IMG/VR virus record: IMGVR_UViG_3300025151_000047
Coordinates: 1 to 53,008 of that record
Source: a virus
Length of the DNA stretch: 53,008 bases
Strand: one strand, 5' to 3'
Below the pieces are notes generated by a model. That model was not told where the DNA came from and ran no database searches. It saw nothing but the letters and a program-made list of their open reading frames with translations. How positions within the stretch are numbered: the first letter of the stretch is position 1; each line of letters begins with the position of its first letter. The position numbers and the translations under genes were made by a program. Shown in pieces: positions 4,810 through 27,018 of the stretch.

Positions 4810-5340
4810 CTAATCGATTTTCCACCCTGCCAAAAGAATCGTTAAGTCCTTACCGTCTACAACCGTGTCATCGTTAAGATCCCAAGGAGAGACTAACATG
4901 TAGTCCTGCTGGGGCCACGGAGCGTCAATTAACTTAGGTGGTCCCCAGTCACTTAAGAGTTCACTGAGGTCATCAGCGTTGAACTCTGTTTTAATAATAT
5001 AAAATTTAAAGTGCCGTGGAATCTCTATCGGATAGCTCTGCAAGTCCTCCCCCGTGAAAGGGTGGAGAGGCAACTGAGTGCGGCACCAGACGATCTCCAT
5101 AGTGTCCTCTTTGGTCTGCCACCAGTCGAAGGGCAATAAGCCACTGAGGCGGCCCTCAGGCAGCGTAAAGCAATACTGGAGGCAAGGGAACTTGGAATCT
5201 TCGGTAGCGTATAACCGAGCCGTACCTTCGTATACAGTACGTGGCCCCTGAATGTAGGTGTTATATTCAATAGACCATTCGTCAGTAGCGTCCCCCAAAG
5301 GGGCGGCCACAAGAGCGGCAGCGGTGAGGTAGATTAACAT
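4810..5340 (-). CDS. secreted protein with dockerin-like C-terminal domain (176 aa)
   Basis: The N-terminus (MLIYLTAAALVAAPLGDATD) looks like a signal peptide. The C-terminal 60 residues carry two dockerin-type segments. The first is degenerate (FNADDLSELLSDWG). The second, around residues 154-170, has a full calcium-loop pattern: D, N, D, D and D at loop positions 1, 3, 5, 9 and 12 (DLNDDTVVDGKDL), then TILLAGW. Dockerins bind cohesins or anchor exported proteins; this form is familiar from Planctomycetota exported proteins. The middle (residues 20-130) is not recognised. A GGGAG site precedes the ATG. Inference: the gene may have been taken from a host, and its product exported to the envelope. 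Confidence 0.7.
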   Translation of the reverse strand: MLIYLTAAALVAAPLGDATDEWSIEYNTYIQGPRTVYEGTARLYATEDSKFPCLQYCFTLPEGRLSGLLPFDWWQTKEDTMEIVWCRTQLPLHPFTGEDLQSYPIEIPRHFKFYIIKTEFNADDLSELLSDWGPPKLIDAPWPQQDYMLVSPWDLNDDTVVDGKDLTILLAGWKID

Positions 5341-5375: not shown

Positions 5376-5579
5376 TTATTTAATATTTTTCACAATAGAG
5401 TACTGCTTATCGTCAAGTTTCTGAAGCCGCGCTGAGATCTCACGGATGCGTCTATCGTGGGCTTCAATCTGTTTTTCGTGTAGGGATACTTTGCTAGTGA
5501 GCCGCCAGACGAGTCCAAAGACACCTAGTAGAGCGGGTCCAGCAATGCTAATAATAATAGTAATTAAGTGTTCTTCCAT
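5376..5579 (-). CDS. small membrane protein with charged coiled coil (67 aa)
   Basis: An N-terminal hydrophobic segment (residues 5-27, LITIIISIAGPALLGVFGLVW) is followed by a charged helix with heptads (HEKQIEAHDRRIREISARLQ). This is the layout of small phage XhlA-like, holin-accessory or inner-membrane spanin-like proteins. The 59-residue product at 30170-30349 has the same layout and a similar charged core (RTEDHEARIREIE). A GGGGGGA ribosome site precedes the ATG. A part in lysis is plausible, but only the architecture supports it. Confidence 0.6.
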   Translation of the reverse strand: MEEHLITIIISIAGPALLGVFGLVWRLTSKVSLHEKQIEAHDRRIREISARLQKLDDKQYSIVKNIK

Positions 5580-5700: not shown

Positions 5701-8700
5701 TTATAAGATGGGTTTTTTCATACCCCCTATTAGAGAGTCTCTTAGAAGGGATCCTAAGTTTTCGTATTCAGACATGTCTGGTCTATTTAATTCTTCTTTT
5801 AATGCTGGGATTAAATCAGGATCTCTCATAGAGTCTCTAGGTTGTGACTGTCTTGGTTCGACTGTCCCTTGTCTTGGTCCGGGTGCCTCCCTAACAGGTT
5901 TACTAACTTTAATGTTTTCCATAGGTTTGTATCCAGTCTTAAAGGGATCAAATAAAGGCATTCCAGAGTTTTTCAACATATCGTTTGATACTCTTAATCC
6001 AATAGGAACAATAGCAAAGAACGGAAGGGGGACCATTGAAGCAACATTAGCTGCACCAGTTAAAGCTTCTCCTTGATTGATCTTAGCGAAAGCGTTAGTG
6101 ACTCTAGTGGGTAACTGTAACATACGGTTAACCATAGCAATACCCGCCATGCTGTAGATCTGAGTGTTGGACGGACGCTGACCACGGAGAACCTGTAAGA
6201 GGGTGGCGATGACCATCTGGTTCATACCGAAGAACGGAACGGACATCATGGCATCCTGAATCTCAGACATAGGATCTCTCTTTGCTTTCTCTACCATATC
6301 CTCATAGGAAGTAGACATCTGAAGCTGGATGAGTTTATAATATAAATAACCGGAAAGTGCGTGACCCATAAAAGCTGCCGCAAATGCAGCCATACCGCCC
6401 AGACCAGCTCTATGCATACCGCTGTATACCGTAGAGGAGTAGGTATTAAGGGCCGTAGCTATGGGAGCCAGAGGACCAAGTGCTCTAGCTCCGACAGCAG
6501 GAGCTTCAGATACTGAGGGCTGTTTTGCGTATCTTGTTGCGCCTAACCATAAGATTTCTCTAAGGGCGTTGATTACTTGAATTCTTTGTGCTCTTTCTTT
6601 TGCGTTAGAATTATAATCAAAAGATGTTTCAGAAACCATTTTATCAAACGGCAATCCCTTTTGTTTAATATCATCACCGTAATCATAAAACAGCTTTTGA
6701 ACCACGGGAGCAAGCTCTCTACTGAATAAACCATTCTTAAGCATATCAATAACAACAGTAATTAAATCACTATCCATGTTATAATTACTCTTGAGTTTTA
6801 CTCTAAGTTCTTTCAGAGAAAGCTCATTTACATTCATATCTTGGAATGCTTCAGCCAATTCGTTAAACGTAGGTAAGATTGGTCCTCTAGGAGATCCCGG
6901 TATTAAATTACCTTCATCGTCAATTAAACTAACACCTTTGGACATTCTATAGAATAACCTATTAATATCCTGTGTGGTTTTTCTTGCGCCAATCTGACGG
7001 TTGAGGTTAACCTGAGAATTAAGACCCTTAGACGTAAAGGCGTAAATTCCTTTAGTTAGACCTTCAAATCCCTTATCAAACCTAGATTGATCTAATTTTC
7101 TACCGTCTTCCATACCAATTTTCTGAAGAACAACATTGACTTCTCTTGTCAAATCTTGGGTTATAAGCCCAAGACCTTCTAAGAATGCGTTTTTGTCTTG
7201 CTTACTTTTAAGTAAACCTACACCCTCTTGAATTCTATTATTAGCAGCTTGAAGGTTTGCTTTAAACGAACCAGCTAATGCCATAGGAGTTTCTTCCAAG
7301 AGAGAGGCAAAAGCAAGTCTTGGTCCAATAGCCAAAGCAGACCCTAACTGACCAATATGGTTAAGCATGTTAATGAACGGGATCGAACTAGCATCTTTAT
7401 CGTCCCACTTTAACGTACCCGTACTGTACCTATAAGCACTTTTAATGGCGTTAAAGGCGTGGGTAAACTTGTTCTTCTCTTCGGGCTTAAGACCTCTTTT
7501 TTCACCCATCTGTTTCATAAGCGGATCAAGCATGATATCCTCAAATTGATTGTTTTCAACTAACTGATCAATAGTATCAATCAGATCTGAAATACCAACC
7601 CCACGAATACCAAAAGCGTTTCCGAAGACTTGCCTATCAAATGCTTGAGCTGCCTGCCCCCTCATAAGAGAACCAAATATTTCGGCGGGATCTAAATTAA
7701 GGTGCTTTTTAATAAGAGGGTTCTGAAGCATATCCATGGTATTAAAGAACTTCTCTCCTACAAAGGTATACGTAGAAGAACCGGCTCTCATCATGTAATC
7801 TTCAGCAACAAGATTAGCTAACTTCTCGTCCATTCCTTGCGTGTACGTTCTCTTTTGAGCTTCCTTTGTTTTCTTAAGTCTATCATTTCGTAATTCCATA
7901 ATAGCTTCTTTTTGTTTTTCTGAGAGTGGTCTATCACCTCTAATATGATCGTTGTATACGTCACGTTCAGGTTCCGTAAGCAGATCATCTTTTTTAAGTT
8001 TACCTTTTTTAATATCTCTCATGAAAGAATTAAAGGCAGTGTTAGTATCACCTTTTTTCTGTAAGTACTCATTGTAGATACTAGACGCTGGTCCCATATC
8101 GATGCTAGACGGGGATTTAGTTGCATCGTCTCTCTCAAAGTAATCAGCAAAAATAACCTTAAATAAATCTGCATCAATGAATTCACTGTTAATTAATTCG
8201 TCAGTGATCTGATCACCGATAGCATTTCTCAACTCTTCTCTGGCTTGAATACCGTTTTTGCCATCGTTTCTAAAAACATCGTCTGAGAATTTTACAGGAA
8301 TAACACCTTCAGTAATTAACCTATCTCCCAACGTGGCATCAAATACTCCGCTATCTACCTGAGCGGTAATAATTTGTTTCCAAATACCCCTTTCAGGATG
8401 CGCCCACATTTCAACTAAATCAACAACCTTTTCAATGTTGGTTTCCTGTTCAGCTAAAGTCTTTTCGTCAAGAGTTTGCCCTGCTTTTCTAAAAGCAAGT
8501 TTCATGATTTCTTGTGCTCTATTTTTAGCGGCTTCCCTTCCTTGCCATCCTTTGATTTCGTTAGAGTACTGAGTTTCAGAAACCTTTTCTCTCATAGCCG
8601 TTGAAGCCCAGAACATATCGATGAATAAATCATAGGGAGTATAATCCTCAGTTCCTGTTTTCATTCCCGGCGTAAAGTTACTAAGTTTAATCTCTAAAAG

Positions 8701-11700
8701 ACCATTCATTAATGGTTCAAATATACCCTTTAACTGCAAGCCTAATCCCTGCATGGTAGGCAAGTTGGAACCAAATGCACTGGATGATACTAAGAGTTTA
8801 GTGTCAGTAGCTTGTAATAACATTAAGATTGTAGACGGAAGTCCGTTTTCTTTGTTTGCCATAAACGCGAACTTCTTAAGACCGAAGGGCTGTGCAAGGT
8901 TATGCATCAGTTTTTCTGTCTTTTCTCTACTAATTAAACCACCAGATAAATTACTCATAAGAGTAAAGACAGGGCTATCTACCAGAGTACCTGAAGATGT
9001 TTGCTCTCTCTTAGAGTCTAAGAATCTGTCAATAGCTTTTCGTCTCAAGTCATCGTTTTTAATTTCAAAGGCGTTAAACATACCTTCTTCGTCCGTATGC
9101 TCTCTAATAACATCGTCAAGCCTATGGATATCTGTTTTAAATGCTTCAGGAATATCAGGACGTTTTGGGCCTTCGTTGTTAAAGAATGAATCAGGGCCAT
9201 CAAAGTTATCGAACATTCCACTAACTTCGTCTTGGTCCAACGCATTAACATGAGATTGTTTACGTAAACCCGTCTCAGCCATTAATCCCATACCCTCGGA
9301 ACCAATGAATGTCTTGAAGTTTTTATCGACAAAACTCTTGTATCGGTTATATTTTTCAATATAATGAGAAGCGTTATCAATACCCTCAGCGATGGTTTTA
9401 TTGTCTTTAATTTTCAGCACAAAAGAATTAACATCGTTTCCAAATAGAGCCGAAAGGGCAAACAAGACACCAAACAATTCGTTGTTTACTGAAGGATCAT
9501 ACTCAGGTGAATCAATCCCTAAGTTTTTCTTAAACTCAGATATTCTAGAATCATAAGAGTTTCTTTCATTAGGTTTACCAAAAATCTTTTGCTCTAATTC
9601 GACAAACTTATCGAAGCCCTCTTTATTCTTAAGGAGATCTCTGGCAACAGTCATGTAATCTCTCATGCTTTCTTTGTCGAGTTTGCTGCCAACAATGTGT
9701 CCAATCTCTTCTAAGATAATACCAACAGCACCGAACTCACTGATACCCTCAAAAGATTCTGCAAGATCTTTAGCCACTCTAATTCTTGCTGCAACAACCT
9801 CAGCTCTACCACCCGCTTTTACTTCAGGATCAACAACAACATCTAACGGTTTCGAGTCTCCGAATAGATCCTTTAAAAGAACGTGATTAGCTCTGTCGTT
9901 AAATACGGCCTTTAACAGTAAGTGATCGTTTTTGTTAATAGTTTCCGTAGCAAGAAGTTCGTTTATAACCGTTAAGAAGTTTTGGTGATAAAAACCATTT
10001 TGAGCAAACTTGTCGTTATTAAACACTTCGTCAATAGTATTCGATCCACTGAAGGGTTCATTGCTGTCGGTTCTAGGTTTAATAGAATTAATTTCTAACT
10101 CAGTTTGATTAGCTGCCATTGGAACAGTAGGGTTACTGGTATTTTCGTTCACATCTTTTATTGAGTCAGCAACAGCAAAATCAGCAGTAATCTGCAACGG
10201 ATCTTCCATAATATCGTTTTGATGTCTAATGTTATCAGGGTTATATACAGCTTTATCGTTCTGTTGTTTTAATACGTTTTCTCTAAGCAAAGCAATAACG
10301 GGTAAAATATTATCCCTAAAGTCATCATACATTTCTCGGTAAGTAACGTTTTTCTGACCACGAAGGTTTTTTCTAAGCGTTTCCAGTCGTTTGAAAATAT
10401 TGAATAACCCTTCTTCTTTACCGATAAACGGAACTAAAGACATAGCCCTACTGAATGCTTCCTTATCTACCGAACGAATAGTATCCAAGGCATTAGAGTC
10501 TTCAATACTAAGGTCGCTTAAGATTTCATTAGCATTGATTTCATTTGCAATTGAGTAAGCTTGGCGGATAGACGCATCGTCGTAAACCAAGAATTCAGCA
10601 TCCATAGCTTTCGTACCAATAAACATTGTGTTTCTATTATCAACCTGAGTATTGGCTTTATTTTTAGTCAATCGTTTAATTGCTTGAGTTTGGATCATAG
10701 CATTCTGTCTAACTTCTTGGATAGAAGACCCCTTAGAGCTAAACGGATCGTAACCACCGATAGCATTAGGAAGAGATTTTTCGTAAGGAATATCAATTCC
10801 CATGCTATGAGCAAAAGTAATAGTATCCATTAATTTTTTGTTTACAATAGAGTTAATTGCCATAAGTTTTTCAACAGGTAATAACTTAACTCTAACTCTA
10901 CCTAAGACATAATGAGGAGAGACTGGTTCACCAAACTGGTTAATAAATACATTATCTTTCTTGGAAATAATAGTCTTTTCAGATCTTGTCTTGAGGAGGC
11001 TTTCAATAGTCATTCCTTCCTCAACGCGACCTAACACTCTATCGATATTTGGGAACATCTTCTTCATATCCTGAGCAACAGCTTCTGTCACAGGAATATT
11101 TCTAAGAGATTCGTTCAAGATATGCCGGTTACTATAACCTCTTACAGCTTCATTAGTACCTCTATCAAGTAAGTTTTGGATTGTTTTAGTTTCAGTTTCA
11201 TCTAAAGTTCTAACAAAGTCTTCCATTCCAAAAACATCGGAAGCATCTAACGATTCACCTTGAAGTTTCTTATCGTAGTATTTAGTAAACACCCCAATAT
11301 GCTGACTCGTAATCTCATAGTCCTTACCCATAATTTTACTAATAGCATATCTCTTAGCTGAATTCATGGCGTATAAAGACAGGTAGAGTGCCGGAGAGTC
11401 ACCACCAGAGAAGGCAACCAGAGCATTCATTGCTCTATTGGGATCCTGACCCCTTGCGCTAACAGCAGAGAATCGTCCTTCAGAAGTTAAGATTTCCCCT
11501 AAGAACTCCGCATCACCAGAAAGCCAAGCTAATAAGTTACCTGCTTCAACGTCGTTATTGATAATCATATTTTGAATGGCTTCCTCAATTGTACCAGTCC
11601 CAAACGATACAGGAATTGAAGAAATAGTATCAGCTTCAAGGCTGTACAAATCAGTTACTCTATTTTTAGCATCAAAGCCCCACTGGGTAAGTGCTCTGAC

Positions 11701-14700
11701 AGTCATCTCCTGATCTAAGACAGAGTTATCAACCATGGCATCCAGAGAGTTCTGAGCTAAAATGTAGTTAGTGTTTTCTAATACTAATGTGTTAATCTGG
11801 CTATCAGATAACGATGGTTTTTCTTTCTTAATAGCTGAGAAAATACTATCGTACAAAGACTGGACCTTTTCGGCTTCTAATCGAATCTGTAACTGACTTC
11901 TTTCCGATTCTCGGAGTCCGTTTAAAGAGTAGTAAGCTAAGAGAATCTTATCGTAGTTACCCTTATCTCTGAATTCGTTCAGTTGCTTATTATTAACCGT
12001 TTGTACGAAGTTATCAAGTTCGCTTCGTAAAAGCTCAGATACTTTTTCAATAGTCGGTTGTTTATCTAAGTTAGCAGCAAAAGAATTAAAGATATTAAAC
12101 GGCATTGTTTTCTGTAGTCTCAAGGGCTTAATATCATCTAAGGCTTCAGGAAGTGTATTAGGGTAAGCTAACTCTTCGTCACTAAATGGGCGTTCAGGAT
12201 TTACTCCAGTTAAACCCTTTCTAGTTGTTTGAAGTCTTTCTAATCTAGCTGCTGACGGAGATCTCAATAACTGGGACATCCTAACAATACCCGAAGGGAC
12301 ACCTTCAAAGTTTTCTAAATAAGTTTTAGGCAAGAACCCTAAAGCACTAGGCAGAGAGGTAACTTGAGACGTAGTGTCGTTTCCAGTGATCTCTTCCATG
12401 ATACCAGCTATCTCAGGAGATCTATTTTCTCCCGTAGAATCAATCATCTTAGAAATCATTTTAATTAAGACATCGTACTGTTCTTTATCACCTTCGTTAA
12501 GATTACCTCTATTCTTAGCTCTTTGTAATCTATCTAACTGGGTAATAGCCGCATCTCTAAGTTCAGCAGAATCTCTACTATCCGTTTCCCACTGCTTGAA
12601 GAAATCGTACATGGTAGAAGTCTCAAACTTGTTTCCGCCGATTTCAGGTAAGTCACTTCCGTCAGTAAACTCAGCTGCTTTTATAGCAAGTTCTAAGACC
12701 GTAAGTTTTTCAATTACTTCTCCAATATCTCCAACAATAGGATCATTTCTTTGTTCGACTACGCTATATACCTCACCGTCTCTAAATCTTTTTTCACTGG
12801 TGGGAGTGAAATTAGACGGACTGTACCTTCTACCGTGGTCAGATCCTGCGGCGTTGAAGAAGAAGTCGTTCTCAAATCCTCTTCTAGCGACTGGATTCAA
12901 TCTGTTTAGGACTGTGCTAATAACTTCTTCTCCAACGTTACCGAACATACCTCTCATAGTATCTTCAAATGATGATTCTTTTAATCTGTAAGCTTGTCGC
13001 GCATAGCTGTTTAAGGCATCAACTTTAATATTACGTGCTTCCTCAAAGGTAACAAGAGTGGAATATCTTGAGTAAGCTTCAGTAAAGTCTCCAGTTTCCT
13101 TAGCCTTTTCTAAAAGCTCTTTTAACTGTTCATCTGATTCAATTCTTTCAAGCGTAGTTTCAATGACACCGGAAAGACCCTTAATAGCGTCTTTTTCGTT
13201 TTCGTAGAATTTGTTTTCAACTAAATGCCGTGAAACACCTAAAGTTTTTCTAATAAGCTCACTGAATGAAGAATTTTGTTCTCTGTTGGATGCAGTTGTT
13301 CTACCAATAATTGTATCAAAGTCATCGGTTTCATCAAAGGTACTTCTAACAGCGTTACCAATAGGAATATTACTTTCTTGAGTAAGTTTAAATCTATTGA
13401 ATAAGTCCCTAAGTTTTTCATTGGTAATCTTATTTCCGCCTCTATTTGGGAAAAGAGTTTCTTTCACCCAGCCATTTTCAACGGTAACTCCATTCTCGTT
13501 AAACAGGTTGCCTAACAAATCGGAAGCTGCTATAGCAATTCTTGTATAAGAAGTATCATCAATAATCCCACTGTTAATGATCTTTTCTTTGTTTTCAGGG
13601 ACATTAAAGAACTTATTGTAAATATTATTACCCATAGTTCCTGCACCTGCGTTATACAAGTCAGTCATAGTGGGAGACTTAAATATTTCTTTTAAGGCCA
13701 TATCTAGATCGTCAGCTTGAGTAAAGATTTTTCTAATAGCCTCTAATGCCAAGACATAATCTTCACCCATAGCTTCAACTGCTTTGGTTAAAGTACCGCT
13801 AGGGGTTCTTTCTTCTGCTGTTCTCTTTACACGTTCGTAAATAGTTTCATAGTTTTCAGTAATGAATCTAGATAATCCCTCTTCTCCTTCAGCTTCTCGG
13901 ACTAAATCTCTAAAGAATTGTCTGATTGCTCCGGCACCTTCGATACCTTGGACCATACCAATCATAACATTACCACCAGAAGCATCTGCATCAAGTTCCT
14001 CGACTTGTTTTTTAAAGAGTGTTTTCTGTATACGTTCTCTAACCTCAGGTTGTACTTCGTCAATTCCTCCTCCAAAGAAGAAGGTAACAAAATCATAACC
14101 TGTTTCTTTTTCAAATTTAGAATCGTATAATTTCCTAGCCGCGTCGAAGACACCTCTGTAGCCGTAGGTTATCTCTGCTGCTGCCAACATACCAGATTGA
14201 ATTGTACCACCTCTAGCAAATCCAACAGGGAAACCAAACCCAAGACCATCAAGGGGTCTAATAGTACCACTTTCAGTAGTCACTTCGGGATTAAAGTGAC
14301 CTGCGTCTCCGACTACTAAACTGGAATACATGGGGAACAACGCATCATGAACAGCCGTCATAAAAGCTGGATCAGTAGCAAGGAAATGCTGTTTGTTTAA
14401 GTCAATTGCTCGTTGAATACTGTTAGGCACTTCGCTGGTTAATGACTGGTAGGCTTGAGTGGGGAGAATCAGTAGGCCAGTATCCCTTGATTTATTGGGA
14501 ATAGCATCCTCTTTGATTTTAAACTTAGTTAACCACTCCCTTAATGCTTTAATATCAACACCAGTATTATCTAATTCTGCCTTAAGAATAAAATCAATCT
14601 TACGGTTTAAGTCAAACTCATCGTACATAGAAGCGATAACGGAATCAGACCGCTGTTGGATCTTGCTTTCTCTGCGCTCACCAATATCTACTTTACGCTC

Positions 14701-17700
14701 TAACTTTCCGGTTTTACCCATAACAGCTGTTCTGTTGTTAACTCTGCTTGTGTTTTCTTTCTGGGTAGTTAAAGCGTCGATAACAGCACGGGCTGCTCTT
14801 ACGGGATGTAATAAATCAATCACACCACCTAAGTCCGAAAACTCTTTAATCTTTTTACCAGAGGGTAAAACTGAGTTAAAGTCTTTCAAAAGATTAGTTA
14901 CAATCAAACCGTCAGTAACATTATCGGTTTCAATATTGTTATTTGTTTTCGCTAATCTGGTGATCTTTGTATTGAAGTGGGATTCCCATTCTTCCTTGGT
15001 AATTGGGTTACCATCTTCATCGACATAAGAGTCTTCTCCGTTTGCTTTCCTCCACTCTTCCGCCCTTGTTCTATTAGCTTCGATAATATCTTCAACAAAG
15101 TCAATATTATTTCTAATGCTTCCTTCTCCTTCAAAGAGACCAGTACCATCAATCTTACGATCAAAGATTCTGTTGTAGGTAGCGTCGATACTCTTCATGA
15201 AAGCAGGAGCCTGACCCGGATCAGCCATAGCAAGTTTTTCTCTAATGGAATCTAATACAATATCTCCGTCGTATACTTTTTGTTCTCCTCCTGATTTTGT
15301 ATCAATCAGTCTCATTATCTCAAAACCTGAGTTAGATCCAGCGATTAAACCAAGAAGATCTTCTCTAGAAATTTCATTTGTAAAGTTATAACCTTCTGAA
15401 ATAGACCCAGCCACGTTCTTACCGTTTTGTCGATTAGCTGCAATGTAGTTAGATACATTCATCAGCAGACTCATGAGTGGTTTAACGTGACCAACGGGAG
15501 GTCTTATTTCTACAGAAATTCTTTCAGATTCTAATCTAATCTTGTTGTTTAGAATATCTTTGGTACGTCTTCTAACAGTTTGTTCGATACCATCTCCCAT
15601 TTCCTTCAGGAGGTTAGCAATTTCTTCAAGTTCTTTATTAATCGTAGTCAGTTCTTCTGTTGCAGGTTGTGACTTCTTTCTCCTAGCGATCTCTGCTCGA
15701 AGATCATCGGCTTCTGCGAACAACCTAACGGGTTTAGCTTCTAGTTTTTTATTACCTCCTACCTCAACTTGTGTCACCAGAATTGCAGCACCTTCGTCAT
15801 TGGCTCGACCAGTGCCGTTTTCAATTTCATTCAGCGCATTTTCTAATCGCTCAGTAGGTACGTCTTTCAGATTTGTTTCGGCATTGCCGCCCTTATAACT
15901 TTGTACAGATCCAACAGGCATTTCGTCCTTTGGAGTCATTTTCGCTTCTCTGGTTTCAACTTCACCAAGTTTGCCTGCCGCCTCGTTGAATTCAGCTTCT
16001 AGCTCATCAACATTTTGGCCTCTTTTTTCTGCTTGTTTTCTTGCCTTGTCAGACAATGTAGGTCTTCTCTGGTCTTGGGAACCTTTTCTAAGTGTTTCCC
16101 TCTTAGCTAAAAGCTCTTCTTGTTTAAGCTTAAACTCGTTATACTTATCGTCTTTATCTTTTGCAGTTTTAATTTGTCGTTTTATTAACGCTTCTTCTTG
16201 TGATTCCACTCCCTCTTTAATCAGTTTTTCAATAATCTGCATTTCTTCTGATTTAAAGTAAACACTAGAATCTAAAAGAGACACGGCTTTGTTGTAATTG
16301 TCTGTATCTTGCTGCGTAGGGTCTTTCATTCTTTCGGAAATAGCTGAAGCTAATTCACTCGCGCTCATCTTACTTCGTCCCTTAATTTCTAAGGATGCCG
16401 CAAGATTGTTCAGGACGTTTTTACCGAGTCCTAATTCCTGAACGTCTCCCTTTGCAATTTTATCTCTTACATCTTTGACCTTATGTAAAGCCTCTTCAAA
16501 CTGCTTCTTTTTGTTTTGTCCGTCCTCAAGATTAGAAATAACATCTGCAATATTGAGCTTATCACCATCATCTTTAAGTGCAGTCTTAATATCACCAAGT
16601 TTCATAACTTCAGCGGAATCGAAGGCAGAAAGGAACGCTTCTTCGGGATCTAATCCTTTTTCGATAAGCTGATGGTACATAGTCTCATACAGTTCTGCGT
16701 CTTTAGCTTGGATAACGTTTAAAAAGTTATCATTGACAAAGTTTTTAATTTTTTCCATGTCCTCAAGACTGATACGATCTGTACTGTAATTCTTAATTTT
16801 ACGAAGAAGAGTATCCATGTCTTCGCTGATGTTTGTCATACTGAGTAAACGATTAATGAGATCTTCATCCATACCAAGCACACCCATAATGCTTGCAAAA
16901 CTGGGAGCATCCGCTTCTTTATCAAAGGTCAAATCTTCAACAATTTTATTTCTAAGTCTTTTACGGAAATCAGAAATATCTTCAATTAAAAAGTCATCTT
17001 CAGCCTTTATTCTTCTACCTACAAGAATCGCATGATTATAGACATTATCTTCGTGCGCGGATTTCTGTTCATTTTGGGTTTTAGTCAGCGATTCTAACTT
17101 ACTTTTTTCTTTAGTAATTTGATCTCTTAATTCTTTTTTCTTGTTCTTATCAGTAGTGTTTTTTAATTGCTCTTCTAGATTCTTAACGGTAGATTTAACT
17201 TTACTGATTTGTTCAGTTGTTTTATCTAATGCGTCTTGACTTTCGTTACTTGCTTGGGATGCCTGCTCCTCTTGGGTTCTAAGATTGGTAAAATCTTCTC
17301 GACTACGAATAGTTTCAGAGCTAGAAGGCTCTACTCCGTTCACAGTTGCGTCAGCAATTTGTTGCCTTCTTTCGATGGGGTCTACCTTTTTTATAGCACT
17401 TTCCGCAAGTCTTACGTTTAATTCCTTAGCCTTAAATTCCTTATTTCTTGCAATCAAATCATCCTTAAGGCCATCTGTAAGTCGTTTAAGAAACTCATCT
17501 ACCGAAATAGACTCATCATCTTTAATACTATTAGCAATTCTTTTTGCAGTTTTTCTAATAGTAAGACCTGATTGGTTAGCAGTAGAGGCTATTTCGTGGA
17601 TTTCGGTTTCAAGCCTATCGAGGTTACCTTCAATCTTTGAATTATCGTCACCAACATCTAATTTAGTGAAAACATAGTTTACAGACATCCTAGCATCAGC

Positions 17701-19725
17701 TGTAATACTATTAGAGGTAGCTCTGTTAACGAAAGCTTTAACAGACCTTGTAAATCTAGATTCGTTTTTCCGAATTGAGTTAAGCCTATCTGAGACAACC
17801 TTGTTTAATTGAGTCATCCACCCTCGTTTTCTACCTTCTTCAGGAGAGTCTGGACTATCAGGATCAAGATCCCTCTTCCCTCTACTAGCTAAGTTAAACC
17901 GATCAGAAAGGTTACGTCCAATGTTAGCAGTAACATCAAACGCTCCACCAACTGCGGGAGACAGTAAACCACCGGCTACACCACTCATTGCCATACTAAG
18001 CCAGATAGCACCGCTCTGCTCTCTCTGGTAGGCCATAGCGTCTGCTGCTTCTTTTCCGTACATAGCTTCATTTAAAACATCCTCAACGGAACTAGCATAC
18101 TTGTATTCTAATGCGCCCCAAATAACACCTTCACTTAACCCAGAAATAGATCGGTAAGCTATTTTACCTGTAACACTTTTAGGAAGATAATCGCCCGCTT
18201 CTAAGTATGTTACTAAGTTTTTAAAGTTCTTTCCTTTACCCGCCCTAAGCGTGTACATAGCAGAGGGGGCTAAAAGCTCAGAGACAATCTGCGTGGGCAT
18301 GAATCTCTGGAAGTGAAGTGCTTTATCGGCTATTCCTCCAACGATCTTACCAGCTGATGATAGACCAACATCTGCTGCTTCTCCCATCCAGTGAATACCT
18401 TTTCTCGTTCTTGTCGCTTTATTGAAAACCGACATTGAGTTAGATACTTTAGTAATATTACTAATTGCAGCAGAACCCTTTAAAGTAAACGCTGCTCCCT
18501 TTAATACCGAATATCCACCTACGGTGGCAGCAGTAGCAAGAATATCTAAAGGTAAAGAAGGGTCAGCAGTAAACCCATAACCAAACATATTAGCGTAAGC
18601 TTTAAACGTAAACTCTCCGTTAGATCTTCCTAAATGTTCAGCGACAGAGTATTCGATTTGTTTTTTGTTAACGCCAGCAATAAACGCAACAGGGTTTTTA
18701 GACTCCACTAAATCCTTAATAAACTCAGGATTCTTTCTAAGATAATATAACATATCTTGGTTTTTAGTTGTAGTCAGAGCTTCAGCTAACATATTTCTTG
18801 TACCGGGAAGCTCATCAGTACCTACCCAAGTCTTATCATCGTACCGGTACAACTTATCGACAGCATCTTCCGTCCCAAACATGGATTCGTAAGTTGAGAT
18901 TTTTTCTCCTGTCATGTAATCAGGAAGAAGTTTTGCAATATTATCAATAAACCATCCATTGCCTGTTCCGGCTGTAGCCATAGCAATTTGCTGTTCAATT
19001 TCTTTTTGTCTGAAAATATCATCAAACTCAGAATCACGTAAGGGGTGATCTTCAGGAAGAGAATCAAAAACCTGCCTTAAAGCAAACTCAGTTTCTTCTC
19101 TCATACGCATCTGTAAAGCTTGGTCAGACATAATACCCGCAGTTTTACCAAGTATAGACTGATTTTCAGCGTACTGAGTAGCATTTGTAAGTTTAGATGC
19201 TTGATACGACTCACGTAAATCGTAGAATCTCATGCCCGTTTCACCCGGCATAGTAGCAAAAAGTTGGCTATTAAGCAAGGTAGGAGCTAACGTAGGATCG
19301 TCAATAGAACGGTGGACACCTTCAATAAATTTAGGATCTGAAGATTCAATAACGATTTGTTTCTCACCGTTTTCGTCTACTACTTCTTTTGCGAGTGATG
19401 TAAATAGGTTAACAAAATAATTATTTTCCGCTTCAACTCTTTGAATAGTTTCCTCAGGAGAAAATCGTTCTGGCCTGAATAAATTATCAGCCGCTGCTCT
19501 AAAGTTATCTCTTAAGTTCATAACTTCAGTTTGATCTAACATATAGTCAGCCGAATAAACTGAGTCTGCTAAAAACCCGCTAAGGTTTTGTGAAAGCTCG
19601 TATTCAGCTAGATAATCATTAAGTTTTTTAGGACGAAGTGAGTCCTCAAACTCTTTTTTCTTTAAAGCATTAACGTAATTAGTAGCTTCTCTAGAATAGT
19701 TCTCACTATTGTATTGAATAGGCAT
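5701..19725 (-). CDS. giant internal virion/ejection protein (4674 aa), candidate virion RNA polymerase
   Basis: Last of three ejection-protein genes, in the position of T7 gp16. Visible parts: hydrophobic segments near residues 388 and 588; a coiled coil near 818-893; a segment resembling single-subunit RNA polymerases at about 1912-2030; a zincin-like EEIGH at 3339-3343 with a later NNELFGVLFA (E about 3416); and a glycine/alanine-rich hydrophobic C-terminal region at about 4415-4590 like those of large polyvalent phage proteins. The polymerase-like pieces are DASGGNVMIG (D1914), TIYERV (about 1961) and FKSPTMTDLYNAG (K2016, M2020, T2021, Y2024). D-to-K spacing is 102 residues, against 94 in T7 RNA polymerase. 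No DxxGR motif lies upstream and no certain motif C was found. No lysozyme motif was seen at the N-terminus. AGGAG precedes the ATG. Ejection-protein role likely; polymerase activity inferred. Confidence 0.8.
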   Translation of the reverse strand: MPIQYNSENYSREATNYVNALKKKEFEDSLRPKKLNDYLAEYELSQNLSGFLADSVYSADYMLDQTEVMNLRDNFRAAADNLFRPERFSPEETIQRVEAENNYFVNLFTSLAKEVVDENGEKQIVIESSDPKFIEGVHRSIDDPTLAPTLLNSQLFATMPGETGMRFYDLRESYQASKLTNATQYAENQSILGKTAGIMSDQALQMRMREETEFALRQVFDSLPEDHPLRDSEFDDIFRQKEIEQQIAMATAGTGNGWFIDNIAKLLPDYMTGEKISTYESMFGTEDAVDKLYRYDDKTWVGTDELPGTRNMLAEALTTTKNQDMLYYLRKNPEFIKDLVESKNPVAFIAGVNKKQIEYSVAEHLGRSNGEFTFKAYANMFGYGFTADPSLPLDILATAATVGGYSVLKGAAFTLKGSAAISNITKVSNSMSVFNKATRTRKGIHWMGEAADVGLSSAGKIVGGIADKALHFQRFMPTQIVSELLAPSAMYTLRAGKGKNFKNLVTYLEAGDYLPKSVTGKIAYRSISGLSEGVIWGALEYKYASSVEDVLNEAMYGKEAADAMAYQREQSGAIWLSMAMSGVAGGLLSPAVGGAFDVTANIGRNLSDRFNLASRGKRDLDPDSPDSPEEGRKRGWMTQLNKVVSDRLNSIRKNESRFTRSVKAFVNRATSNSITADARMSVNYVFTKLDVGDDNSKIEGNLDRLETEIHEIASTANQSGLTIRKTAKRIANSIKDDESISVDEFLKRLTDGLKDDLIARNKEFKAKELNVRLAESAIKKVDPIERRQQIADATVNGVEPSSSETIRSREDFTNLRTQEEQASQASNESQDALDKTTEQISKVKSTVKNLEEQLKNTTDKNKKKELRDQITKEKSKLESLTKTQNEQKSAHEDNVYNHAILVGRRIKAEDDFLIEDISDFRKRLRNKIVEDLTFDKEADAPSFASIMGVLGMDEDLINRLLSMTNISEDMDTLLRKIKNYSTDRISLEDMEKIKNFVNDNFLNVIQAKDAELYETMYHQLIEKGLDPEEAFLSAFDSAEVMKLGDIKTALKDDGDKLNIADVISNLEDGQNKKKQFEEALHKVKDVRDKIAKGDVQELGLGKNVLNNLAASLEIKGRSKMSASELASAISERMKDPTQQDTDNYNKAVSLLDSSVYFKSEEMQIIEKLIKEGVESQEEALIKRQIKTAKDKDDKYNEFKLKQEELLAKRETLRKGSQDQRRPTLSDKARKQAEKRGQNVDELEAEFNEAAGKLGEVETREAKMTPKDEMPVGSVQSYKGGNAETNLKDVPTERLENALNEIENGTGRANDEGAAILVTQVEVGGNKKLEAKPVRLFAEADDLRAEIARRKKSQPATEELTTINKELEEIANLLKEMGDGIEQTVRRRTKDILNNKIRLESERISVEIRPPVGHVKPLMSLLMNVSNYIAANRQNGKNVAGSISEGYNFTNEISREDLLGLIAGSNSGFEIMRLIDTKSGGEQKVYDGDIVLDSIREKLAMADPGQAPAFMKSIDATYNRIFDRKIDGTGLFEGEGSIRNNIDFVEDIIEANRTRAEEWRKANGEDSYVDEDGNPITKEEWESHFNTKITRLAKTNNNIETDNVTDGLIVTNLLKDFNSVLPSGKKIKEFSDLGGVIDLLHPVRAARAVIDALTTQKENTSRVNNRTAVMGKTGKLERKVDIGERRESKIQQRSDSVIASMYDEFDLNRKIDFILKAELDNTGVDIKALREWLTKFKIKEDAIPNKSRDTGLLILPTQAYQSLTSEVPNSIQRAIDLNKQHFLATDPAFMTAVHDALFPMYSSLVVGDAGHFNPEVTTESGTIRPLDGLGFGFPVGFARGGTIQSGMLAAAEITYGYRGVFDAARKLYDSKFEKETGYDFVTFFFGGGIDEVQPEVRERIQKTLFKKQVEELDADASGGNVMIGMVQGIEGAGAIRQFFRDLVREAEGEEGLSRFITENYETIYERVKRTAEERTPSGTLTKAVEAMGEDYVLALEAIRKIFTQADDLDMALKEIFKSPTMTDLYNAGAGTMGNNIYNKFFNVPENKEKIINSGIIDDTSYTRIAIAASDLLGNLFNENGVTVENGWVKETLFPNRGGNKITNEKLRDLFNRFKLTQESNIPIGNAVRSTFDETDDFDTIIGRTTASNREQNSSFSELIRKTLGVSRHLVENKFYENEKDAIKGLSGVIETTLERIESDEQLKELLEKAKETGDFTEAYSRYSTLVTFEEARNIKVDALNSYARQAYRLKESSFEDTMRGMFGNVGEEVISTVLNRLNPVARRGFENDFFFNAAGSDHGRRYSPSNFTPTSEKRFRDGEVYSVVEQRNDPIVGDIGEVIEKLTVLELAIKAAEFTDGSDLPEIGGNKFETSTMYDFFKQWETDSRDSAELRDAAITQLDRLQRAKNRGNLNEGDKEQYDVLIKMISKMIDSTGENRSPEIAGIMEEITGNDTTSQVTSLPSALGFLPKTYLENFEGVPSGIVRMSQLLRSPSAARLERLQTTRKGLTGVNPERPFSDEELAYPNTLPEALDDIKPLRLQKTMPFNIFNSFAANLDKQPTIEKVSELLRSELDNFVQTVNNKQLNEFRDKGNYDKILLAYYSLNGLRESERSQLQIRLEAEKVQSLYDSIFSAIKKEKPSLSDSQINTLVLENTNYILAQNSLDAMVDNSVLDQEMTVRALTQWGFDAKNRVTDLYSLEADTISSIPVSFGTGTIEEAIQNMIINNDVEAGNLLAWLSGDAEFLGEILTSEGRFSAVSARGQDPNRAMNALVAFSGGDSPALYLSLYAMNSAKRYAISKIMGKDYEITSQHIGVFTKYYDKKLQGESLDASDVFGMEDFVRTLDETETKTIQNLLDRGTNEAVRGYSNRHILNESLRNIPVTEAVAQDMKKMFPNIDRVLGRVEEGMTIESLLKTRSEKTIISKKDNVFINQFGEPVSPHYVLGRVRVKLLPVEKLMAINSIVNKKLMDTITFAHSMGIDIPYEKSLPNAIGGYDPFSSKGSSIQEVRQNAMIQTQAIKRLTKNKANTQVDNRNTMFIGTKAMDAEFLVYDDASIRQAYSIANEINANEILSDLSIEDSNALDTIRSVDKEAFSRAMSLVPFIGKEEGLFNIFKRLETLRKNLRGQKNVTYREMYDDFRDNILPVIALLRENVLKQQNDKAVYNPDNIRHQNDIMEDPLQITADFAVADSIKDVNENTSNPTVPMAANQTELEINSIKPRTDSNEPFSGSNTIDEVFNNDKFAQNGFYHQNFLTVINELLATETINKNDHLLLKAVFNDRANHVLLKDLFGDSKPLDVVVDPEVKAGGRAEVVAARIRVAKDLAESFEGISEFGAVGIILEEIGHIVGSKLDKESMRDYMTVARDLLKNKEGFDKFVELEQKIFGKPNERNSYDSRISEFKKNLGIDSPEYDPSVNNELFGVLFALSALFGNDVNSFVLKIKDNKTIAEGIDNASHYIEKYNRYKSFVDKNFKTFIGSEGMGLMAETGLRKQSHVNALDQDEVSGMFDNFDGPDSFFNNEGPKRPDIPEAFKTDIHRLDDVIREHTDEEGMFNAFEIKNDDLRRKAIDRFLDSKREQTSSGTLVDSPVFTLMSNLSGGLISREKTEKLMHNLAQPFGLKKFAFMANKENGLPSTILMLLQATDTKLLVSSSAFGSNLPTMQGLGLQLKGIFEPLMNGLLEIKLSNFTPGMKTGTEDYTPYDLFIDMFWASTAMREKVSETQYSNEIKGWQGREAAKNRAQEIMKLAFRKAGQTLDEKTLAEQETNIEKVVDLVEMWAHPERGIWKQIITAQVDSGVFDATLGDRLITEGVIPVKFSDDVFRNDGKNGIQAREELRNAIGDQITDELINSEFIDADLFKVIFADYFERDDATKSPSSIDMGPASSIYNEYLQKKGDTNTAFNSFMRDIKKGKLKKDDLLTEPERDVYNDHIRGDRPLSEKQKEAIMELRNDRLKKTKEAQKRTYTQGMDEKLANLVAEDYMMRAGSSTYTFVGEKFFNTMDMLQNPLIKKHLNLDPAEIFGSLMRGQAAQAFDRQVFGNAFGIRGVGISDLIDTIDQLVENNQFEDIMLDPLMKQMGEKRGLKPEEKNKFTHAFNAIKSAYRYSTGTLKWDDKDASSIPFINMLNHIGQLGSALAIGPRLAFASLLEETPMALAGSFKANLQAANNRIQEGVGLLKSKQDKNAFLEGLGLITQDLTREVNVVLQKIGMEDGRKLDQSRFDKGFEGLTKGIYAFTSKGLNSQVNLNRQIGARKTTQDINRLFYRMSKGVSLIDDEGNLIPGSPRGPILPTFNELAEAFQDMNVNELSLKELRVKLKSNYNMDSDLITVVIDMLKNGLFSRELAPVVQKLFYDYGDDIKQKGLPFDKMVSETSFDYNSNAKERAQRIQVINALREILWLGATRYAKQPSVSEAPAVGARALGPLAPIATALNTYSSTVYSGMHRAGLGGMAAFAAAFMGHALSGYLYYKLIQLQMSTSYEDMVEKAKRDPMSEIQDAMMSVPFFGMNQMVIATLLQVLRGQRPSNTQIYSMAGIAMVNRMLQLPTRVTNAFAKINQGEALTGAANVASMVPLPFFAIVPIGLRVSNDMLKNSGMPLFDPFKTGYKPMENIKVSKPVREAPGPRQGTVEPRQSQPRDSMRDPDLIPALKEELNRPDMSEYENLGSLLRDSLIGGMKKPIL

Positions 19726-19744: not shown

Positions 19745-22700
19745 TTAGGTGTCACTAATGAATTTACTCATAGTATAATATGGGTTAAGTTTCATATTGC
19801 GGTTCATTCGGTTGAGTACTTCTTTTATATTTTCTTTTTCTTGAGCACTATATAATAAAGGTATCATATCTAAGTTATACATCCAATTAGCTGGCTCAAA
19901 GACTTTATCGCTAAAGTTTCTATTAGAATTTCTTAAAATATTTTCTTTAATTTGTAAAAAATATTTCTCATCTAACATATACTCTTGTTCTTGACCAAAC
20001 CCCAAACCTTCTCCGAAATTAGTTTCAATAGTTGTATCGAGACCTGTACCTAAGACAGCTGCGAATAACTTTGGAATTCCTTTGGTATCAGTGGCATCGG
20101 TATAATCCAACATGTTTTTAATGAATTTTGATGTTTTCACTTCTGGGTTAGGTAACTGAGACATTTGCTGTAATTGTATATAAAAAGCAATACCTTGGTT
20201 GAGACCTAATTCCGAAATACCGTATTCGTAACTGTCTTGGTCCCCTTTTTTAGCATGTGATAAGCCTCTCTTTAATCCATTATGGTTTACTAGTCTTCTT
20301 AAAACCTCCATCCAATCACCTGAAACTCCTTGAAGCTGTTTAAACTGACTATTTAAAAGTTTAAAAGTATCGTAAGGAACAATGGTTTCACTCTGAGAAA
20401 CAATCTCAGCTTGGGCTAAAGGATCATTAATTTCTAATTCACTTTCAATACGAGATAAAAATTCACCTTGCTCAGTAAAAGGATTAAACTCAAAGGGGCT
20501 ACTAAATCCGTCTGCTACGGGATCTTTAGAAGCAGGCATAACCTTAACGCTATATGTAAAGAATCTACCATCATATAACTCATCTTTTTCTTCCATATAA
20601 GCAGTAAGACCCGGTTTACTATCGTCTTCGTTATCGACTTCTACAATAGATACGACAACTCTTTTACCTGCGGTATTTAAACTCTGTGTTAAAAGAGCAT
20701 CAGCTGAAAATTCTGATGTTCTTTTACCTTCTGCTTCAAGAGTAGCCAACATAGACCTATATAATTCTCCTGTTTCCATGGAAAAGTTGAAAACTTGAGG
20801 GTCATCTAAACCAACTCTAGTCATTTCAGCCATAAGCTCTTCAGTGGCTACCCTACCTTTTTCTCTATTTTTAATAATTTCTTCTTCGTTTGATCTAGGT
20901 AATCCAGTTACACGATCCATGTTTAATACATCGTTAACATCGTTTCCTATATTTGAATTTTCAAATACAATTCTTCTATCAAATATTGCTCTTGATGGTA
21001 TTTGAGTATCTTCAAAAATTAAACCTTGGTAACCTTGAATTACTCTAGCATAGTTATTTATATCTTCTGGTCTATTTCCGAGTAAAGCTACGCTATTTGC
21101 TAATGCAAAATTCCTAATATCGATAACACGATCAGGGGTAGCTTCAAACGCCCCAGCGTTACGTGGCCTAGAAGATTTAAAATTACTAGCTGGTATACCT
21201 AAAATAGATGCCAGTAAATCACTAGATTTTTCAACAGTTTCTTCAGGTAAAAATGAGATACCATTTCCACTGACTAAACCAAAAATAGGAGCAACTTTCG
21301 TTAAGTTACTTTGCATCCAGTTATTAAGCTCCCCTTGTCCTTGTGTTTTAGCTTGTTCAATTTCCTCTATTAAACCGTTCATTCTTTTATTTAATTCTTG
21401 TTGAACTCCTTTAGGGAAATCTAAAGAGTACCCGTGAATTTGTCTTTTTTCTTTATAAGATTCCATAAAAGAAGAAAGGTAGGGGACAACCTTTTCGTTA
21501 TCGTCGCTAAACTTAAATACGCCATCACTGTAGCTAAAAATACCACCACTTTCAAAAGCTACCTTATTACCTAATCTTTGCATAGAGTCTTCAAAAGAAT
21601 TCACAAATCCGACGTACCTCTGGTCTCCTTCAAATATCTCGCTGTTACCTTTTCTTTCAAGTATTTCTGCAATGTTTTTAAATTTCATAAGAGCGTTCAC
21701 ATCTTCGTCTTCTATAATTGCTTCAATACCTTTAAAAGCCATATCATTTAAATACGGTAAATTAGCTCGTCTAAAATCTTCTAAAATAGTACTATTTACG
21801 GATCTTGAAATATTGTTAAAAGCTTCTTCACCTAATGACATGGCAGCATAAGATAAATGATCCATAGCCTCTGAAGAGGATTGATAATCGTTTACTGTAA
21901 CTCCGTTACTTAAAGCAGAAACCGTAGAACTTGTAGCAGTTGCTTGTTCTGTAAATCTCTGAGGAGTAGGAATATCAATACCTTCATTAACCATTTTTCT
22001 AGCTATTTGAGTATAAGCTTCAAAATCGTCATCGAAGAGAGATTCATCAATACTATCTCTGAGAGACATATATTTCTCTGCGTCTGGGAACATAAGTTCC
22101 ATAGGCATAGGAGACTGAGGATATTTCCCCATTCCTACACCAGATGTAGCTTCTTGATACTCGAAATCGTAAGCAGCAATGCGGAAATCCAGCATATTAT
22201 CTATAATAGATTTTTGGTTATCTCCGTACTGGGAGCTGTAAAGATTATCTATAATTGTTCTAGTTGTATATATTCTTTCGTCTTCTCTATTAGCCTCAGG
22301 AGGAGGAGAACTCGGTACAGTCACAGGGTTTACTGGCCCAGTTGTCATTTCGGCTTGCCGTGCCGCTTGTAAAAGCTGTCCGGTTCTTTGGTTACTACCA
22401 AAGAACAACTCAAAGTCTTGTCTGTACAGACCGGAATAAGCCCTCATTGCCATAGCATAAGCAGCTCTATCTCCTTCCGATCCCTCACCCAGAATCGTTG
22501 AAAGATATTCAGGTTCTTCTTGGACTTTCTTAACAAACGGTTGCAGTTCTTCTGGGAATCTCAAAACATTGTATCTACTCAATAATCGAGTATTAGTAAT
22601 AGCTGAGTCTCGATCGATAATTGAAGGAACCTGTTTAACGCCATTATAAAGGTAGGTAAACATGCCTGCTTGACCAGCGGGAGAAAGACTAAGAGCCTCA

Positions 22701-24945: not shown

Positions 24946-26636
24946 TGATTAAATTTCCTTAAAAGCCTGTTTTTAAAATAACTAGGTTTGTTCATTTTAA
25001 GGTGTTCTCCGTTAACCTGTACATTACCGATGCATCTATCAAATCCAATACTCTGTATTCTTCTAGCATCGTTTTCCCAGTTTTGAATAATGTTTTCATT
25101 TCTTAACTGCTCTGCTTCTGCTACCTTATCGTCTACGTTAACTCCCAAGGAATCTTCCCAATAAGCTACGCTAGAAGCAAGAACATCTATGCGGTCATCG
25201 TGTTTAAGAGATCCTTTAACTTCTGTAATTCTAGTAATTTGACGTTGTGTCTTTTCCTGTCTGATAACCTTGGGATCAACAACTAGTCTATGGGATGACA
25301 TAGCTGGCTCCAGTGTACCGATAATTCTTTTACTCTTATTACCCGTAACTCTGAACTCCTCAATACCCGCTTCACATCCCATGCGTTTCATTACGGGAAG
25401 AAGAATTTGTCCAAACATAGCATCGCCAAAGTTAGACTCAAACCTAATTAAAGATACTTCTGTTTCCATAGCCATCGTAACGATCTTCTCAAGCGTCTGC
25501 TCAGAGTAGCCACCCTGTAGGCCATCCAACTCAAGAATAAAGACATAGCCATTAAGATACCCGGAGACACATATAGCAGTTTCATCTGCTCCGCGACCAC
25601 TAGGGTCAATGTGCATAACTTTATGTACATAATCCTCATAATTTTGTGAAACCCACATAGGCTCATACAGGACATCTCCACTCAATCCAAAAGAAGGTAA
25701 TTTTTTATTAACGTGTTTAGATGCCCAAACAATCTTTTCAGGGGCTACTGTATAATCACAATCAAGTACAATCAAATCAGCCAACCTAAGGGGATACCTG
25801 TCAGCGTCAGCCAGTGAGGTATCTAGGTGGTAATGCAACGAGAACAGTTTAGGACCAACTTTGGCCTTACGCTCCATGAGAAGATCCAGATCGAATCTCT
25901 CAGGCTGGGTAGACTCTCCGGGCTGGAGATCTAGTTCTAATATATAATCAGCACAGTCAGCAATCTGACCGGGGCTATCAGGATCCGGCATCAGAGCCGG
26001 GAACTTGTGGATCGGATACCCGTCAGCCATCTTACGGTAGATCGACTCAGAGGTCTGAGGCGTACCCAGAATGCGTACACCACCCTCTCCGGGGTTACGG
26101 ATCTGCTCGATCTCCCAGACCTTCGTGAGAAGCCGCTCACGGCTCTCTGCGGTCTCCGAATTCTTTTCGATCTCAACATCGTCCAAGATCACCCAATCGG
26201 CGTGAGACCCCGTTATCTGCCCTGTAACGCCCCGTGCGAAGCAGCTTAAATCCTGCCCGTGAGCAGTCCTGTTTTCGACGTTAAATCCGAAGGCATTATC
26301 CTTGGTATTTGGGCCGGGTTCCATGTGCTGACAGTACGGCACAAGGGACAGAATACGGCGTGTCATGGAGATGAACTCTGTAGACTTATTGGCCGTAGCT
26401 GACATGACCATCACCGTAGTATTAGGATCCTTCAGGAGCAGCCACGATGCGAAGCAAGCCGTTAGGACAGACTTACCGGCACCTCGACCGGCCTGAAGCT
26501 GGAAGCCGTCAGGGCCGTTCTGGAGCTTCTCAGCCATAGCGTATTGTAGTGGAGTAGGCTCCCCCAAGCCTAGATACTTGAAACAGGCCCACAAATGATT
26601 CCTGAAGTCATCAAGCATTTCTTGGGGTATATTCAT
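24942..26636 (-). CDS. terL: terminase large subunit (564 aa)
   Basis: The packaging motor ATPase and nuclease. Residues near 50 contain the Walker A motif (QAGRGAGKS), and about 100 residues later comes Walker B (WVILDDVEIE). A coupling-type motif follows (RILGTPQTSES). The C-terminal nuclease half has HIDPSGRGADETA, with the first catalytic aspartate, and KHDDRIDVLA near the end, with the last. The length matches T7 gp19-type enzymes (about 580). The gene overlaps both neighbours by four bases. The 5' third (about 25.9-26.6 kb) is clearly more GC-rich than the 3' part, which hints at a mosaic origin. It packages DNA at the portal encoded at 49011-50576. Confidence 0.95.
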   Translation of the reverse strand: MNIPQEMLDDFRNHLWACFKYLGLGEPTPLQYAMAEKLQNGPDGFQLQAGRGAGKSVLTACFASWLLLKDPNTTVMVMSATANKSTEFISMTRRILSLVPYCQHMEPGPNTKDNAFGFNVENRTAHGQDLSCFARGVTGQITGSHADWVILDDVEIEKNSETAESRERLLTKVWEIEQIRNPGEGGVRILGTPQTSESIYRKMADGYPIHKFPALMPDPDSPGQIADCADYILELDLQPGESTQPERFDLDLLMERKAKVGPKLFSLHYHLDTSLADADRYPLRLADLIVLDCDYTVAPEKIVWASKHVNKKLPSFGLSGDVLYEPMWVSQNYEDYVHKVMHIDPSGRGADETAICVSGYLNGYVFILELDGLQGGYSEQTLEKIVTMAMETEVSLIRFESNFGDAMFGQILLPVMKRMGCEAGIEEFRVTGNKSKRIIGTLEPAMSSHRLVVDPKVIRQEKTQRQITRITEVKGSLKHDDRIDVLASSVAYWEDSLGVNVDDKVAEAEQLRNENIIQNWENDARRIQSIGFDRCIGNVQVNGEHLKMNKPSYFKNRLLRKFNQ

Positions 26637-26854
26637 TTCTTCTTTTTACCTTTCTTCCATGAGATACGCGCTGGTCCCTTTTTAGTCTTGGCTTTAGAGT
26701 TACACTGAGCTTTGGTAGGACGGCAAGCTGGGTAGGGACGTTTAGACTTACCCTTAGCAGACTTACGCCCACAGGGTTTACCAGTCTTACAATCAATCCA
26801 CCCTTTACCCTTGTTTCTACCGAACCATTTTCTAAGTCCTTCTTTTTTAGCCAT
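26633..26854 (-). CDS. small basic DUF5872-like protein (73 aa)
   Basis: MAKKEGLRKWFGRNKGKGWI is followed by D-KTGKPCGRKSA and YPACRPTKAQC. This is the pattern of the DUF5872 family, known from many marine phages and viruses, with conserved KEGLRKWF, PCGRKSA and YPxC. It ends in a lysine tail (KKGKKKK). The function of the family is not known; the charge suggests DNA or RNA binding in the capsid or during packaging. The start overlaps the stop of the upstream small gene. Confidence 0.75.
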   Translation of the reverse strand: MAKKEGLRKWFGRNKGKGWIDCKTGKPCGRKSAKGKSKRPYPACRPTKAQCNSKAKTKKGPARISWKKGKKKK

Positions 26855-27018
26855 TACTTCTTCTTCCCTTTTTTCTTGCCTCCTGTACCCCAGTTCTTAG
26901 CACCGACCTTTCGGCATTTAACCAGCGCACCAGACGCATAGGCAGAAGGCCACTTAGAGTAGCGGCTCTTCACTTTACTATAACACGCATCACGTTTAGC
27001 TTTCTTTTTCTTAGCCAT
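26854..27018 (-). CDS. small basic protein, DACYxKVKSRY family (54 aa)
   Basis: A 54-codon gene that begins MAKKKKAKRDACYSKVKSRY and continues with KWPSAYASGALVKCRKVGAK. I recognise this pattern (DACYxKVKSRY, WPSAYASGALVKCR) from small proteins common in marine phages; no function is known. Two cysteines, a strongly basic composition and a lysine-rich tail (GKKKGKKK) suggest nucleic-acid binding. Both ends overlap neighbouring genes as TAATG. It is easy to miss because of its length. Confidence 0.75.
   Translation of the reverse strand: MAKKKKAKRDACYSKVKSRYSKWPSAYASGALVKCRKVGAKNWGTGGKKKGKKK

Follow-up and report, generated by a model that had tools for sequence, protein, structure and literature searches.

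What a dockerin-like tail might be doing at the end of a phage protein is the question raised by this locus. Dockerins are the calcium-binding plugs with which bacteria clip proteins onto surface scaffolds, and cohesin-dockerin plugs have been described in cellulosomes and in a small number of non-cellulosomal systems. The window, by which we mean the whole stretch of 53,008 nucleotides analyzed here, is a 53-kb virus record encoding T7-like terminase, portal, capsid, scaffold, and tail-tube proteins. On its minus strand lies the gene of a 176-aa protein that begins with a hydrophobic stretch, continues into a predicted beta-sandwich, and closes with two further segments; the part flagged earlier, at 4810-5020, is its C-terminus. 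The features used below are:

4810-5340, minus strand: dockerin-tailed gene, an ORF of 176 aa
5347-5351, minus strand: Shine-Dalgarno-like GGGAG, read from the sequence, 6 bases 5' of the ATG of this gene
5287-5340, minus strand: hydrophobic N-terminus, probable signal peptide (residues 1-18; hydrophobicity in 10 homologs)
4993-5277, minus strand: predicted beta-sandwich domain (residues 22-116, with C53, C57, and C86; AlphaFold2, mostly pLDDT 60-82)
4942-5004, minus strand: unit 1, degenerate dockerin-type (residues 113-133, ...KTEFNADDLSELLSDWG; helix kept, calcium loop lost)
4891-4941, minus strand: linker with a conserved PWP (residues 134-150; from alignments, nearly missing in L006)
4813-4890, minus strand: unit 2, complete dockerin-type (residues 151-176, SPWDLNDDTVVDGKDLTILLAGWKID; profile matches to solved dockerins)
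4846-4881, minus strand: calcium-loop candidate DLNDDTVVDGKD (residues 154-165; from its pattern)
5376-5579, minus strand: gene of a 67-aa membrane and coiled-coil protein, a recurrent partner of the 176-aa gene
5701-19725, minus strand: gene of a giant 4674-aa protein, next upstream and occupying the position of a T7-like internal virion protein

Identification of a Dockerin-Like Tail

Unit 2 consists of a full dockerin-type loop and helix (DLNDDTVVDGKDLTILLAGW), in which D154-x-N156-x-D158-...-V161-D162-..-D165-L fits positions 1, 3, 5, 8, 9, and 12 of the dockerin F-hand loop; D154, D158, and D165 are invariant across 11 homologs. Classical dockerins use two calcium loops, and in unit 1 the ligand positions 1, 3, and 5 are lost in all 11. 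Within the six frames of the window, the loop-plus-helix pattern occurs once (0.0 expected from 100 Markov copies) and the DL..LL..W pattern twice, both times in the 176-aa gene (0.01 expected). Among 200,000 shuffles of the 176-aa protein, the loop pattern appeared at a frequency of 4e-5, and none contained two DL..LL..W motifs.

Searched against 177,635 PDB sequences, a tail profile built from the phage relatives gave seven matches, all of them dockerins, with a best E-value of 0.0016, reached by adding up two weaker domain matches. The profile of unit 2 alone matched dockerins in six of eight cases (best E-value 3.2e-4), and that of unit 1 alone had no PDB match. Because unit 1 aligns to unit 2 at the profile level (P 3.9e-4), "degenerate copy" is a fair description of it. 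The single 176-aa sequence reached PDB dockerins at E-values of about 1-3 only, and no Pfam or NCBIfam family was found for it at E-values up to 10. In particular, the protein does not reach the Pfam Dockerin_1 cut-off, the window DNA contains no Dockerin_1 match either, and among nine relatives the best Dockerin_1 E-value was 0.08, in one of them. As the Pfam cut-off is missed and one unit is devoid of a calcium loop, we use the term "dockerin-like" rather than dockerin in the strict sense; on sequence grounds, the accurate description is a dockerin-like tail with one intact and one degenerate unit, and with putative calcium binding. The preliminary description had proposed that a degenerate and a complete dockerin-type segment end the protein: both are present, and their profile matches dockerins only. 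This result also answers its concern that the best matches might be unrelated EF-hand proteins, a possibility that we rejected.

Predicted Export and Fold of the N-Terminal Part

In all ten full-length homologs, the N-terminal 11-residue segment has a Kyte-Doolittle value of 1.9-3.2, versus at most 1.4 elsewhere. The N-terminus of the window copy, MLIYLTAAALVAAPLGDA, is without the usual N-terminal positive charge. Export of the family is likely from these hydrophobicity profiles, and the exported protein with a signal peptide proposed earlier is thus probable. Every homolog contains cysteines, which form two sets, C53/C57/C86 or C53/C107, tracking the N-domain types; disulfides, as in an exported protein, would fit these sets, which probably reflect one evolutionary change.

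The low-confidence AlphaFold2 model of the 176-aa protein has helices at residues 122-130 and 163-170, the places expected for the two dockerin-type units. Modeled alone, the tail gave a weak prediction (pLDDT 64, pTM 0.35), and a fold search with this low-confidence model returned no match. With the N-terminal domain, Foldseek pointed at best to cellulose-binding modules (E-value 0.075) and VIA-align to generic beta-sandwiches (Z 7.6 or less), and consequently we assign this domain to no family. The fold search also gave a BFVD match, A0A516MFS6, with an E-value of 9.6e-4 and a TM score of 0.28.

A Phage Gene Family Present in Three Lineages

By scanning viral contigs, we identified at least 11 homologs in three lineages of uncultured, mostly T7-like phages (L002, L003, L004, L005 [a fragment], L006, L013, L016, L017, L018, L020, and L021/L076; the L019 protein is the same as that of L016). 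The full-length homologs share the same architecture, a short hydrophobic N-terminus, a sandwich, and two units, and the gene is present in single copy. At the sensitivity used, no homolog of the 176-aa protein or of its tail was found in 50,697 deposited phage records, and literature searches found no phage-encoded dockerin, in agreement with the earlier remark that dockerins are unusual in phages. The dockerin-tailed protein is a standing phage gene family and not one stray host gene.

Lineage i (the window, G001, G002, G003, G005, G006, G008, and G011) is made of T7-like phages with a giant protein of about 4.7k aa and a GC content of about 37-42%. The deposited phages closest to the window, mostly marine Autographiviridae, show ~30-43% identity in terminase and portal and ~25% in capsid. 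The 176-aa gene lies downstream of the genes of the 4674-aa and 67-aa proteins, in the orientation of the late genes, and the order giant protein/176-aa gene is also found in L003, L004, L005, L006, and L020. The 4674-aa protein far exceeds the usual size of a T7-like internal virion protein, and its counterparts in G002 and G006 are giant too.

Other genes of the window deserve mention in their own right. A 63-aa protein of the late region (MLNKIKNFLKDERGMQTAEYMILGTIMGAG...; 29986-30177, minus strand) resembles Flp/Fap-type prepilins, with a weak DUF4244 match (E-value 0.0039); it has no convincing homolog in deposited phages, and the relative G006 has no room for the gene. A cysteine-rich protein of 2297 aa (32179-39072, minus strand) is without Pfam match, and G006 encodes a similar-looking cysteine-rich protein of 2221 aa in the same place. 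A cluster of small Lys/Arg-rich proteins precedes the terminase (26633-27629, minus strand) and is conserved in G006.

Lineage ii (L016 and L018) consists of Pelagivirus/CRP-like T7-like phages whose GC content is 53% and whose terminase shares about 60% identity with those of Roseobacter/Pelagivirus relatives; here, the dockerin-tailed gene directly follows the large terminase gene. Upstream of the terminase, L018 (1-501, plus strand), which also has the dockerin-like protein, encodes a Gly/Asn/Asp-rich protein with the classical EF-hand-like DTDGDGYISQEEW. Lineage iii (L021/L071/L076) is a phage unrelated to the others, with Sak4-like and exonuclease genes.

A Recurrent Neighbor and Its Positional Context

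In most lineage i genomes, the 67-aa gene adjoins the dockerin-tailed gene, and a 69-aa counterpart (48% identity over 66 aa) lies near the latter in L076. These two, the 67-69-aa membrane gene and the dockerin-tailed gene, are the only genes that L076/L071 detectably have in common with lineage i. The small gene is absent from G006, G008, and lineage ii, and is thus not an obligatory partner. Its protein matches phage families weakly, the best being phrog_1193 "hemolysin" (E-value 0.004). A 59-aa membrane and coiled-coil protein elsewhere in the window (30170-30349, minus strand) may be a weak paralog of it (E-value 0.008).

In L076, the dockerin-tailed gene closes a series of small membrane-protein genes, formed by an 87-aa gene, the 69-aa gene, a 124-aa lipoprotein-like gene, and a short membrane ORF. 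In HTVC201P and MedDCM S45-C18, relatives of lineage ii, the slot following the terminase is held by a lysozyme or an amidase; in CRP-125 and CRP-114, two Roseobacter phages, it holds small hypothetical proteins and no lysins, which makes the positional argument for lysis a soft one. The 176-aa protein itself matches no PHROG family, any more than a Pfam or NCBIfam one, and shows no lysin signature.

Conservation of the Tail and Probable Exchange between Phages

No part of the protein is better conserved than the tail. Genes of different N-domain types are about 35-60% identical at the DNA level in their N-terminal part and 58-79% in their tail. For most pairs, the pN/pS of the tail falls at 0.07-0.22, the exceptions being L003-L006 and L016-L018 (about 0.4). 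That purifying selection keeps the tail while the N-terminal domain diverges is well supported by these comparisons.

G002 and G003 are 99.97% identical over 32.9 kb, and their tail regions differ by 44 substitutions within 235 bp (positions 22416-22650 of G002). Two more dense patches of substitutions relative to G003, in the terminase and giant-protein genes (68-1035 and 13195-13353 of L041, the G002 contig), probably reflect recombination. Given these additional patches, the tail difference, genuinely present in the contigs, seems to stem from ordinary homologous exchange rather than from a special hotspot, the alternative being an assembly chimera. Identity tables hint at tail swapping between N-domain types; since an AU test of the tail data against the N-domain tree gave no rejection (P 0.096), we do not claim general mosaicism.

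Origin of the Gene and Clues to the Host

The preliminary description also suggested that the gene may be host-derived and that its tail, of a kind said to be common in Planctomycetota, is a clue to the host. Cohesin/dockerin systems have indeed been reported in Planctomycetes (PMC6461901), which makes the Planctomycetota idea reasonable, no more. Two scans of 84,980 GTDB genomes yielded pattern matches and no tblastn-confirmed cellular locus, a weak negative result because the patterns were narrow (7-8 residues), and plasmid searches gave nothing meaningful, only matches at E-values of 8-10 in Deinococcus and Pseudoalteromonas. A different clue comes from a 136-aa membrane protein of the window (30352-30762, minus strand), 45% identical in pairwise alignment over 129 residues to a protein of Verrucomicrobia phage P8625; its only matches among 50,697 phage records were P8625 (two records) and Phage C75C1. 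This gene may be a weak hint toward a host of the PVC group.

The published planctomycete systems and the reputed frequency of such tails would also suit a host gene that is carried passively or was captured recently, has no phage function, and has a tail that simply marks a planctomycete host. The low pN/pS, the occurrence of at least 11 homologs in three lineages with a recurrent neighbor, and the failure of the two pattern-limited scans to find a cellular homolog all speak against this explanation, which we consider very improbable, purifying selection and the wide distribution having largely refuted it. We accordingly rejected recent capture, and in this sense the earlier suggestion of a host-derived gene is not supported. 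An ancient host origin is possible.

A Docking Model and Its Alternatives

The reading that we prefer is that the late-region gene of these T7-like phages gives rise to an exported, two-part protein. Following Sec export, its N-terminal sandwich would be held at the host envelope because its tail would bind, in a calcium-dependent manner, a cohesin-type receptor provided by the host, the phages having no recognizable cohesin (the Cohesin family had no match in seven phage records). There, at a late stage of infection, the protein and its 67-aa membrane partner would act together, most likely to lyse the cell or release virions, and otherwise to shut out further phages. We infer both the docking on a host surface receptor and the function in lysis, release, or superinfection exclusion, and regard this reading as plausible, if somewhat short of probable. 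Late-infection docking is weighed down by the failure to find a cellular homolog or a receptor, by the loss of the unit 1 loop, by the weakness of the tail model, and by the uncharged start of the window copy.

Part of the same evidence would fit a tail that acts on its own protein, either as a self-contained calcium-stabilized or folding element or by clasping the protein's own sandwich, intramolecularly or through self-association, the secreted protein acting alone. Just one of the two calcium loops is intact, no cohesin was found in the phages and no host partner is known, and unit 1 is predicted to continue directly from the last strand of the sandwich. Yet the helices of both units (DDL..LL..WG and DL...L.GW) are strongly conserved while the N-domains differ widely (35-60% DNA identity), so that they look like a shared interface and not like packing on a diverging domain; we consider this alternative rather unlikely. 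Less likely still is a moron for superinfection exclusion or surface masking, whose product would be secreted in the course of infection and, held on the surface by its tail, would hide receptors. A single-copy accessory gene spread over three phage lineages, with a variable N-domain and a conserved tail, is what such a moron might look like, but the gene sits among late and membrane genes and not in an early region. A further alternative is a virion-associated decoration or adsorption protein, with the dockerin tail tethering particles to the surface of the host. The location of the gene would agree with this, as it follows the internal virion protein genes in lineage i and the terminase gene in lineage ii; the export-like N-terminus of all full-length homologs and the different genome positions in the lineages make this alternative improbable.

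The docking model can be extended into a more far-reaching proposal, which we regard as speculative and on the doubtful side: phages would hijack the cohesin-dockerin surface of their hosts by exporting a variable beta-sandwich on a common viral dockerin tail, along with a small membrane coiled-coil partner, and anchoring it to the scaffold of the host surface, for lysis or exclusion, and the pair would move between unrelated phages infecting the same kind of host. If this were true, cohesin-dockerin plugs would also be a phage-host interface, and the tail would report the surface receptor, and perhaps the phylum, used by these uncultured phages. The membrane coiled-coil protein and the dockerin protein form a testable two-gene unit common to otherwise unrelated phages.

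Comparison with Known Systems

Examples of type I dockerins (Pfam PF00404) include the CelL-type 6kg9/6kgc/6kge, endoglucanase A 2vn5/2vn6, and the Ruminococcus flavefaciens group 2 9gvb. As in these, unit 2 of the phage tail has a D-x-N-x-D-x-x-V-D-x-x-D calcium loop followed by a helix, and two tandem units stand at the C-terminus of an exported-looking protein. Unlike them, the phage tail has one intact calcium loop and not two, unit 1 being a helix only; its helix follows the pattern DL..LL..W, and the linker has 17 residues in most members and is short in L006. The tail also differs in scoring below the Pfam cut-off, in being phage-carried, and in having no known cohesin. The "planctosome," a planctomycete cohesin/dockerin assembly (PMC6461901), offers a similar succession of signal peptide (a probable one in the phage protein), domain, and dockerin outside cellulose degradation, but it is host-encoded with a hypothetical peptidase scaffold, and the likeness is one of architecture. 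Phage lysis cassettes (holin, spanin, lipoprotein, and endolysin) differ from this locus in that the 176-aa protein is without a lysin signature, a role in lysis being suggested by context; the locus resembles them in the proximity of small membrane/coiled-coil and lipoprotein genes, and in the use of a post-terminase slot that is held by lysins in some relatives.
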